Assembly: GCF_003363775.1 (NCBI RefSeq)
Contig: NZ_CP031376.1
Coordinates: 434,001-498,000, forward strand
DNA length: 64,000 bases
Direction: 5' to 3'
From: Spiroplasma alleghenense
Lineage (GTDB): Bacteria; Bacillota_I; Bacilli_A; Mycoplasmatales; Mycoplasmataceae
The translations under genes were made by a program, and so were the position numbers. Position 1 is the first letter of the stretch, and each line of letters begins with the position of its first letter. Under the pieces are notes generated by a model that saw only the letters and a program-made list of their open reading frames with translations, searched no databases and was not told the origin of the DNA. Shown here piece by piece: positions 30,703 through 34,500 of this stretch.

Positions 30703-31308
30703 ATGTTTGGAATAATAGTGATTATCCTTTTAGTTGTAGTAATAATATTCTTAATAGTGACTACGATTACTGGTAAAAAAGCTAAAAAAAATGAGATTAA
30801 GCAGAGAAAAAAAGTAGTTCGAGATGAAATTAAGAACTATATTTTCCAAGAGGAAAAACGCAAAAACCTGAGAATCAACTTTGAGCAAGTTTTTGCTCGA
30901 AAAGGACCTGATTATAAATATCGCGACGTTTTTGATGTAATCGTTGATATTGTGGAACCAAAAACAAATCAAGTAACAGAAGTTAAAGCTTATGAAATTG
31001 AAGGTTTCCCAGTTAGAATTGATAAAAAAAATACTAGAATTGAATGAACAGTAAACCGCGAAATTGATATCGAAGAAACTCGACGTCGTATCGCTATTGC
31101 TGAAAAGCAAATTAAGTTGTCAAAAGAAGAGAAAAAAGCTTTAAAACAAGAAGAAGTCTCAATGATGAAGGAAAAACGCGAAAAAGAGCGCTTAGAGTAT
31201 AAAGAAATTAAGCAAAAACAAAAAGAAGAGAAAAAAGTTGTCACTCCCGTTGTCGATGATAAGTTGAAAAAATCAACTGTTAAATTTGTACCAAAAAGAA
31301 ACAAGTAA
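30703..31308 (+). CDS. N-terminally anchored, Lys/Glu-rich coiled-coil protein
   Basis: 201 residues: one N-terminal membrane helix (about 3-24) and a cytoplasmic part with a small alpha/beta region (DYKYRDVFDVIVDIVEPK, then VKAYEIEGFPVRIDK) followed by a long charged helix from about 120 to the end. The TGA-Trp at 31045 lies in IEWTVNREID. AAAGGG precedes ATG by about 10 nt. No family recognised; the gene is followed by a terminator. Confidence 0.85.
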
Positions 31309-31362: not shown

Positions 31363-33519
31363 ATGAGCAAAATATTTAGTTCAAAATTAACAAAAGAAGA
31401 TTTTAAAAGAGCTTTGTCAAGTTGTTATAAGGAAATGTGAGTTCTGCACTCACAAGAAAATTTTAATCAAGCCTTGCTTTGAAATAAAAATAAAGTCCTG
31501 CAATTTAATTTGAAAAACGAAATTAGCGAAGAAGGCGACTTTGATTCATCAGGATCATCTATAGATTTGTTTGAAACTTATTTTAAAATTTTTGAATCTG
31601 AAAATGATTCAGAAAATTTAGAAAATGCGGAATTAAGAAAAAAATGAAAAGAAAAGTGGCTCGATTTAAATGATAATTCGGCATTAGATGTTGATGGTTT
31701 TGACTTGACTAAATTTGAGGGCGAATCTATCATTGACGGTAATTTGGTAGGTGAGGCGGCAAAACAGTATTTTGAATCTTTAAATATTCAAACTAATTTA
31801 AATCGAAATCAAAAATTAAAAACTTTTGATTTAAGTGGGCTTCCATTTGTTAATGCTGTAGAAAAAACCAAAGAATTAATTAATTCAAAAGAGTATGAAT
31901 ATCTTTTTGAAGCTGCTTTTGAATATGATGATTTTAACCTAAGAACCAGATGTGACATTTTAGAAATAAATAATCATAATGATACTTTTAAAATAATTGA
32001 AATAAAGGCTACTAGTAAAGTAAAAGAGGATCACTTTTTTGACTTAATGTACCAGTATTTTATTTTAGAAAAAAATGGATTAAAAATTAATGACGTCGCC
32101 CTAGGTCATATTCGCAGTAATTATATTAGAGGGCAGGATTTTAATGAATTTAATCTTAATTTAAGCGAAATGTGCGAGCAATTAATTGAAGACTATCCAA
32201 TAATAAGTTTTGAAGAATGTCTTGCAGAAATAAATGGTGAAATAATTCCAGAAAATTATTTAGAAGCTGATGACCTAAATTATAATGGTTTCTTTATTAT
32301 TGATGAATTAAGTTATGGAGAATCTCAAAAACGTTTAAAAATTTTTGAACTAATAAAAATTTTTGAAAGTCAATTTGAAATAACGGAAATAATAAAACAA
32401 ATTACAGAATTATTATCTCTAGGATTTGAAGATTCCCTAAATTTACTACTTTCAAATAATTGTTCAACAGTAATTAAAAAGAATCTCAAAAATAAATTTG
32501 TAAAAATTAGTGAAAGTGATAATCCTGTATATTGCCACCACGTTATTGCATATTTTGACAAAAACAAGGAAAATATTTTTAATTTCACGAATATAAATAA
32601 AAAGACCAAAGCACTAATTCACTATGAGTCACAAAAAATATATCTAGACGAATTTAAAAGTTTATTTGATAGCGAAATCCCAGTAAAGCCTAAGGATAAG
32701 AGCACTTATTTCAGACCAGAAAATTTTCGCCATTTTGAAGTTTACAAAAAATTTCATTCTAATCCAGCAACTTTTAGAGATGAAGACATAATTTTTAAAG
32801 AAGAGAAAAATATTTTAGAATCATTACTGGCAAAATATACATCGTTTCCAATTTACATGTATGACTTTGAAACTGTAAAATGAGCCATCCCTAAATACAA
32901 TAATTCAAAATCATACCAGCAAATACCATTCCAGTATTCTATTGATGTTTTAACAGACAAGAACTATGACTATAAAAAACCCGAAACCATGAAGCATTTC
33001 GATTTTTTAGCAAATAGTAGCGATGATCCGCGTCCTGAATTTATAAAAAATTTTTTGAAAGATATTTTTAGTTGCGGAAAGGGAATTTATGTTGCTTACA
33101 ACGATTCTTTTGAAAAAATGGTTTTAAAACAAATGGCGGTTCTTTTTCCTAAGTATCAAAAATCCCTTATTTATATAGTTCAGAACACCATTGATCTCAT
33201 GGATTTTTTCAAAGGAAATTCAAAAAAATCTATTCCATGATTTTTAATTTACCATCCTGCTTTTCATGGAAGTTATTCAATTAAAAAAACTCAACCAGCT
33301 TTGGACAATAGTTTTAATTATAATGATTTGTCTATTAATAAGGGAGATAAAGCTAGTCAGACTTTTAGAGAGTTTAGTGATGGTAATATAAGTTCAAAAA
33401 TTTGAAATTCTAAAATAAGACCTGACATGATAAAATATTGTAATAGAGACACTTTAGCAATGGTGGTTGTCCTACAAAGAATTAAAGAAATTTTCAAAAA
33501 TTGACAGGAGAATAATTAG
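31363..33519 (+). CDS. DUF2779-type protein: Cas4/RecB-like nuclease plus DEDD exonuclease-like domain
   Basis: 718 residues. The N-terminal half carries a PD-(D/E)XK signature: D198 in RCDILEI, E213-x-K215 in IIEIKATSKVK, and Q231 in LMYQYFIL, the order seen in Cas4, AddB and RecB nuclease domains. The C-terminal half matches DUF2779 and looks like a DEDD 3'-5' exonuclease: D501-x-E503 in MYDFETVKW, an AYNDSFEK motif near 580, YHPAFHGSYSIK, and Y692-x3-D696 in YCNRDTLAM. AAAGGA precedes ATG. It ends directly before the fmt ATG and contains the fmt ribosome site. Natural substrate and process are unknown. Confidence 0.85.
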
Positions 33520-34500
33520 ATGAAAAAAAGATTAGTATTTTTTGGCACACCTTCAATTGCCGTTGAAGTTTTAAAGGGAATCGACAAAAACAATTTTGAA
33601 ATCGTAGGAATTGTAACCCAAACAGATAAAAAAGTCGGTAGAAAGCAAGAAGTCACTCCTCCTCCAGTTAAACAATTTGGAATAGAAAATAGTATCTGTG
33701 TTTTTCAACCAGAGAAAGTTTCTTCTATTATTAAGGAACTGACAGAACTTAAACCTGATATTATTTTGACTTGTGCTTATGGTAAATTACTGCCAAAATC
33801 AGTTTTAGATTTAGTTTCAGGAATGGCGATAAATGTTCATGCCAGTTTGCTTCCAAAATATCGAGGCAGCGCTCCAATTCAATATGCTATTATGAATGGG
33901 GAAAAACAAACTGGGATTAGTCTAATGCAAATGGTCCAAGAGATGGATGCTGGTGATTTTTATGTTCAAGAAAAAGTGGAAATTACTGAAAATGATAACT
34001 TTGAGAGTTTATATAATAAATTGGCAATACTAGGTGGCAAAATGGTAGGGCAATATTTAAATGATATATATAATGGTAAAATTAAACCAAATGTTCAAGA
34101 CTTATCAAAGGTAACTTTGGCTCCTAAAATTTTAAATAATATGGAAAAGATAAATTTTAACAAATCAAGTCAAGAAGTTTTAAATTTCATTAAAGCTTTG
34201 AGTCCATCTCCTGGGGCGTATGCTATTTTGAATGGTGAGAGATACAAATTTTACAATGCCAGACTTCTGCATGAAAATGAGTTTTTTGCAATGACATTAA
34301 ATATTAAAAGAAGTGGAGAAGTTATTTCGATGGACAAAGAGGGATTTGTTGTTTGGACTTCAAGAGGGATGATTAAAATTTTGGAAGTGCAAAAACAGGG
34401 GAAAAATCGAATGAGCGCAGGAAATTACTTTAGCAACCAACAAAGAGAAGTCACAACGGGAAATGTTTTTAACGAAGATGAAGCAAAATTTGATTTTTAA
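33520..34500 (+). CDS. fmt: Methionyl-tRNA formyltransferase
   Basis: Formylates initiator Met-tRNA with 10-formyl-THF. It has 326 residues. N-terminal FFGTPSIAVEVL, then the active site NVHASLLPKYRGSAPIQYAI near residue 107 with the catalytic N and H, then MQEMDAGD-like. The C-terminal OB domain is present (VVWTSRGMIKILEVQKQGK). CAGGAGAA lies inside the upstream gene. Its last 38 nt overlap the S-component-HAD gene. Confidence 0.96.
   Translation: MKKRLVFFGTPSIAVEVLKGIDKNNFEIVGIVTQTDKKVGRKQEVTPPPVKQFGIENSICVFQPEKVSSIIKELTELKPDIILTCAYGKLLPKSVLDLVSGMAINVHASLLPKYRGSAPIQYAIMNGEKQTGISLMQMVQEMDAGDFYVQEKVEITENDNFESLYNKLAILGGKMVGQYLNDIYNGKIKPNVQDLSKVTLAPKILNNMEKINFNKSSQEVLNFIKALSPSPGAYAILNGERYKFYNARLLHENEFFAMTLNIKRSGEVISMDKEGFVVWTSRGMIKILEVQKQGKNRMSAGNYFSNQQREVTTGNVFNEDEAKFDF

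Follow-up and report, generated by a model that had tools for sequence, protein, structure and literature searches.

A mycoplasma DUF2779 protein predicted to join Cas4-like and DEDDy nuclease folds, with the Cas4-like motif set repeatedly lost in relatives

The gene at positions 31363 to 33519 (+) of the 64,000-nt stretch of DNA analyzed here (the window, to whose positions all numbering refers) encodes a DUF2779 (PF11074) protein of 718 aa with two predicted nuclease domains. We consider it probable that the product is a cytosolic exonuclease with two active sites that serves DNA-end processing in repair and nucleotide recycling. In this proposal, a RecB-family (Cas4/EXO5/AddB-like) PD-(D/E)XK domain, clamped by a putative Cys3-His metal or Fe-S staple, would be joined in one chain to a DEDDy domain resembling the proofreading exonucleases of family-B polymerases. 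The DEDDy site would degrade from 3' ends; the PD-(D/E)XK site would start at 5' ends or attack single strands, a polarity carried over by analogy from Cas4, EXO5, and AddB. The most likely substrates would be single strands or the ends of linear DNA, with RNA as a further possibility, and the enzyme would both process ends and return nucleotides to cells that lack de novo synthesis.

The fused architecture is already known, as Majorek et al. in 2014 placed DUF2779 (F.17) among the RNase-H-like 3'-5' exonucleases, with DUF83 on the same protein (PMC3985635). A sequence-only reading of this DNA had spoken of an undescribed role, which holds for the function, still only predicted, and not for the architecture. 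A 2025 review of mycoplasma nucleases leaves DUF2779 unmentioned (PMC12115388). Two observations made here are new. First, an invariant DEDDy set is accompanied by a repeatedly lost PD-(D/E)XK set, with a separate nuclease gene confined to the same two families of Mycoplasmatales. Second, the window's lineage carries an invariant Cys3-His set at the predicted staple.

Reading frame and family assignment

The frame is open only under genetic code 4, in which TGA is read as Trp (seven TGA codons), and the genome that carries the window is a single contig of 1.336 Mb. A Shine-Dalgarno-like AAGAAAGGA lies 5' of the start ATG at 31363. The stop TAG (33517-33519) abuts the ATG of fmt at 33520 (fmt, 33520..34500, +), a conserved neighbor in the window's lineage, and the gene thus sits before fmt as first read. 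Pfam places DUF2779 at residues 498-639 with an E-value of 1.7e-42 and 145.1 bits against a gathering cut-off of 23.3, values at which the assignment is not a chance one. The NCBIfam model of the UU173 family (NF045869) aligns over residues 35-713 and scores 119.1 against a cut-off of 225, which leaves the protein outside that family as defined. UU173 and F.17 share with the window protein the Pfam domain and the combination of DUF83 (PD-(D/E)XK) with an RNase-H-like domain, whereas the window protein has the sub-threshold score and a Cys3-His set instead of a four-Cys staple.

The same domain combination is described for COG2251 (F.13, RecB-family nuclease plus RNase_H_2), which often comes with AAA domains (PMC3985635); none of these was found in the 718 aa. 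RNase_H_2 is matched by 23 members of a broad set of 74 aligned DUF2779 proteins from bacteria and archaea. A fusion to a UvrD-type helicase, as in AddAB/RecBCD, was likewise not seen, Pfam returning Cas4-like and DUF2779 stretches and a chance match to ThiS. The sole phmmer match of the protein in the PDB, a spermidine/putrescine-binding protein, is also due to chance. The nearest named relatives found in a search of the genome collection are from Williamsoniiplasma and Spiroplasma.

Two predicted nuclease folds in one chain

That one chain holds two nuclease folds, as the sequence-only reading proposed, is supported by residue conservation in more than 100 homologues, by two AlphaFold models, and by structure searches. 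The full-length model (pLDDT 80.8, pTM 0.84) places the motifs in canonical elements. Strand and helix order and the fold matches support both folds, and from these we infer that the acids of the PD-(D/E)XK set would gather in one site and those of the DEDDy set in another.

The DEDDy 3'-5' exonuclease-like domain spans residues 494-718 (32842..33516, +). Exo I, D501-F-E503 (32863..32871, +), lies on the first strand of the domain (497-505) and is present in 74/74 members of the broad set and in all Mycoplasmatales sampled. In Exo II, N580-D-S-F-E584 (33100..33114, +), the invariant E584 stands at the start of a helix (581-594) that follows strand 575-578, and Exo III, Y692-C-N-R-D696 (33436..33450, +), with Y692, C693, and D696 invariant, falls within the last long helix (678-717), as expected of the DEDD topology. 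The residues that define a DEDDy site, with Glu for Asp at E584, are therefore found in the right secondary-structure elements. D501, E503, E584, D611, K641, Y692, and D696 are invariant in all tabulated Mycoplasmatales sequences and, together with C693, are kept throughout the broad set. Of the three motifs first read here, DxE and YxxxD stand, while "N-D" does not: the acid is E584 in N580-x2-F-E584, and D581 varies.

The closest solved folds of the whole model are the proofreading exonuclease domains of family-B DNA polymerases (Z 11-13), among them E. coli Pol II (3k5o; Z 11.4, rmsd 2.6, 154 aligned) and KOD (4k8z; Z 11.7, rmsd 4.2, 177 aligned). The fold and the DxE, Nx2FE, and Yx3D motifs are shared with these domains, but the window protein has no polymerase domain and carries Glu in place of the motif II Asp.

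The N-terminal half is of the Cas4/EXO5/AddB-like PD-(D/E)XK type. Its core, residues 178-237 (31894..32073, +), comprises strands 178-188, 193-203, and 208-215 and helix 223-237, with E183, D198, E213, K215, D227, and Q231. In the model, D198 and E213/K215 lie on neighboring strands and Q231 in the next helix, which is the PD-(D/E)XK topology. The D, E-x-K, and Q order typical of RecB/Cas4-type nucleases, already recognized from the letters, corresponds to D198, E213-x-K215, and Q231 on this core and agrees with the fold. The D198/E213/K215 set (D/E/K below) is intact in 73/74 broad-set members and in every relative of the window that was sampled. The Pfam Cas4 match (PF01930) of the window protein is weak and below threshold (E 0.0098; 16.4 bits, cut-off 22.7), and its PADLOC Cas4 match has an E-value of 5e-5; across the 74 family members, these models match 43 (best 1e-8) and 59, respectively. 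Folded alone, the half gives a weaker model (pLDDT 66.7). Its top structural match is Cas4 7mi5 (Z 9.8, rmsd 4.7, 186 aligned), followed by Cas4 8d3l (Z 8.8, rmsd 5.4, 188 aligned), EXO5 7lw9 (Z 8.2, rmsd 5.0, 179 aligned), and, at lower Z, AdnA, RecE, lambda exonuclease, AddB, and Dna2; these are modest Z values, and Foldseek gives E-values above 0.001. Although fold and motifs are shared with Cas4, EXO5, and AddB, the window protein differs from them in having no nearby cas genes, no fused helicase, and three Cys plus one His.

In Cas4-like proteins, the metal ligands are four Cys, one of them N-terminal and the other three C-terminal. In the window protein, the predicted N-terminal ligand of a Cas4-type metal or Fe-S staple is C21 (31423..31425, +), and C367, C391, and H393 (32461..32541, +) take the place of the C-terminal Cys triad. 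Most of the broad set has four Cys (C21, 72/74; C367, 72/74; the column of residue 385, 68/74; C391, 70/74). The window's lineage lacks the Cys at column 385 and has C21, C367, C391, and H393 as an invariant set in 16/16 nearest homologues, which departs from the four-Cys [4Fe-4S] ligands of Cas4. Judged by residue pattern, this Cys3-His site is predicted to bind Fe-S or Zn.

Loss of the fused PD-(D/E)XK set and the separate YqaJ-type gene

A closer look at Mycoplasmatales shows that the two domains differ in constancy. The DEDDy set is unchanged in families f3 and f7 and in all others sampled. The PD-(D/E)XK set is kept in 0/19 sequences of f7, is kept in 10/21 and lost in 11/21 of f3, and is kept throughout in all other families sampled; most staple residues are lost in f3 and f7 as well. 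Within the class but outside Mycoplasmatales, family f22 includes proteins that have lost D/E/K with the Cys staple mostly kept (L105, L106, L108, L109, L111, L115, and L116). One tally also scored the outgroup row L100 as lost, which is probably an alignment artifact, as its E-x-K is visible.

Loss of D/E/K beside a DEDDy set that never changes, and the f22 proteins that mostly keep the Cys without the acids, would suit a protein in which the DEDDy half alone is catalytic in the cell and the Cas4-like half serves chiefly to bind DNA or as a structural module. We regard this as unlikely, given that D/E/K is intact in the window's lineage, in the other Mycoplasmatales families sampled, and in all but one of the broad set, and that the ratio of N-core to DEDDy identity shows constraint on the N-core where the set is intact. 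Among Mycoplasmatales this ratio is 0.88-0.96 where D/E/K is kept and 0.47-0.65 where it is lost; it is informative within that order only, because class members outside give 0.69 (kept) and 0.75 (lost). N-core conservation where D/E/K is intact would fit catalysis under selection, and two active sites remain the preferred reading.

Among the tested families of Mycoplasmatales, a separate PD-(D/E)XK exonuclease of the YqaJ type, MAGa7180/MPN551 (NF045870), occurs only in f3 and f7, the families in which the fused site decays. Unlike the fused domain, it belongs to the lambda-exonuclease branch and has its own gene, and a profile search of the window's genome did not find it. The 31 aligned copies keep, with few changes, the acid of an I-E-P/K motif, G-x-PD, EIKT, and Q-x2-LY. 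NCBIfam names MPN551 merely a DNA-binding protein, yet PDG and EIKT are both retained in f3 members. The separate gene lies directly upstream of DUF2779, on the same strand, in 13 of the 23 f7 genomes for which both gene positions are known (compared by eye). G229, the sole f7 genome of the sample without DUF2779, is also missing the MAGa7180 nuclease gene, and the f3 genome G325 has a separate MAGa7180-type gene and no UU173 match.

Mapped onto a DEDDy-domain tree, the separate gene has a single gain, and the losses of the fused site, at least three, all fall inside the gene-carrying clade. This pattern fits an order in which the separate gene came first and the fused PD-(D/E)XK site then decayed, without reaching significance; because f3 and f7 descend from a single gain, the swap is suggestive and not proven. 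A statistical claim for the swap was dropped, the gain counting as one change beside three or more losses and independent pairs giving no signal. The partner is not required for site loss, since no MAGa7180 gene was found for the f22 proteins that lost D/E/K. Tentatively, one might picture a mycoplasma end-processing unit in which a fixed DEDDy 3'-5' site works with a PD-(D/E)XK site either in cis, as in the window's lineage, or in trans through MAGa7180/MPN551, whose presence would have eased selection on the fused site; such a pair may replace AddAB/RecBCD and RecJ.

Genetic data from M. bovis touch both proteins. MbovP701 (Mbov_0701), a 296-aa YqaJ nuclease, has 5'-3' exonuclease activity and accepts ssDNA and RNA as well; a mutant in this gene, from the same library as the Mbov_0804 mutant, grows poorly with host cells (PMC11678175). 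Length and domain position suggest that it is the MAGa7180 orthologue. Mbov_0804 encodes the DUF2779 protein, and its transposon mutant is reported to fail with host cells and to reach titers like those of the parent in axenic medium (PMC7373297). A nanoRNase mutant from the same screen is rescued by nucleotide supply, which, with the poor growth of the other two mutants, speaks for a part in nucleotide recycling. M. bovis is probably a member of the group that lost the PD-(D/E)XK site, in which case the Mbov_0804 phenotype would concern the DEDDy half only.

Distribution, gene neighborhood, and proposed role

In the phylum sample, 210/295 genomes carry PF11074; within Mycoplasmatales almost all do, mostly as a single copy. 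At least 547 loci were found in the genome collection with an alignment query, a single-sequence search of the contigs having given no match. DUF2779 also occurs in Bacteroidota, Clostridia, Campylobacterota (Campylobacter), Chloroflexota, candidate phyla, and archaea (Nanoarchaeota). The sequence-only reading had seen significance in such a protein occurring in a reduced genome, but as the family is widespread in bacterial phyla and archaea, a reduced genome does not explain its presence. A 3010-aa open frame with a DUF2779 domain in Omnitrophota (L154:6030-15059) is either an exceptionally long fusion or an artifact of the reading frame.

The window's lineage keeps the genes in the order mnmA, small membrane protein, DUF2779, fmt, efp, which sets DUF2779 among tRNA-modification and translation genes; this order was not seen outside Mycoplasmatales among the loci compared. 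The small membrane-anchored protein, of function not known (30703..31308, +), is directly upstream of DUF2779 in 18/19 loci holding it. In f3 genomes, DUF5385 lies upstream of fmt (e.g., L090:2873-3529) and may be a relative of this protein. A translation-gene setting, and the fact that DEDDy folds include RNA exonucleases, would suit a housekeeping RNase acting on RNA or nanoRNA. In the same vein, a nanoRNase was among the other hits of the M. bovis screen that identified the DUF2779 mutant (PMC7373297). We think an RNase rather improbable, however, as the solved structures nearest in fold are proofreading domains of DNA polymerases and nucleases that process DNA ends, and the gene order is a feature of Mycoplasmatales among the loci compared.

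Outside mycoplasmas the neighbors of DUF2779 vary. WYL-like regulators are the most frequent, lying no more than four genes away in 19 loci, and a few neighbors are GmrSD or PDDEXK_4 proteins, as might be expected of an anti-phage defense nuclease. We judge such a role improbable: the gene is near-universal and mostly single-copy in Mycoplasmatales, unlike patchy defense genes; PADLOC recognizes the protein through its Cas4-like half only and names no other defense family; and distant control neighbors carry defense matches too, leaving no clear enrichment around DUF2779. No cas genes, and no cas1/cas2 linkage, were seen among the neighbors. The earlier remark that no CRISPR or RecBCD partner is nearby is correct for the gene's surroundings; Cas1 and RecD2 are encoded elsewhere in the genome. 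The Cas1 protein (G000:C1:1070585-1071277, E 6e-32) lies ~600 kb from the DUF2779 gene, and because it is encoded, the genome probably has a CRISPR-Cas locus. Of the suggested repair and defense roles, defense is the less likely in mycoplasmas, and housekeeping is favored because of the near-universal, mostly single-copy presence and the setting among tRNA-modification and translation genes.

For the two-site exonuclease that we prefer, the repair inventory of the window's genome is relevant. Searches of that genome found neither RecJ nor a RecB/AddB-type PDDEXK_1 protein. ExoVII and RecD2 are encoded, so the DUF2779 protein is not its sole exonuclease. RecD2 was considered as an obligate partner and rejected, as one DUF2779 carrier has no match and others have none above the cut-off.

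DUF2779 is a gene of predicted function only that nearly every sequenced mycoplasma keeps, in genomes among the smallest of free-living organisms. If its product is a two-site exonuclease, it may explain how these cells process DNA ends and recycle nucleotides without AddAB/RecBCD or RecJ. The cis-to-trans pattern points to one particular partner, MAGa7180/MPN551; its likely orthologue in M. bovis is reported to be a 5'-3' exonuclease and to have a role in growth.
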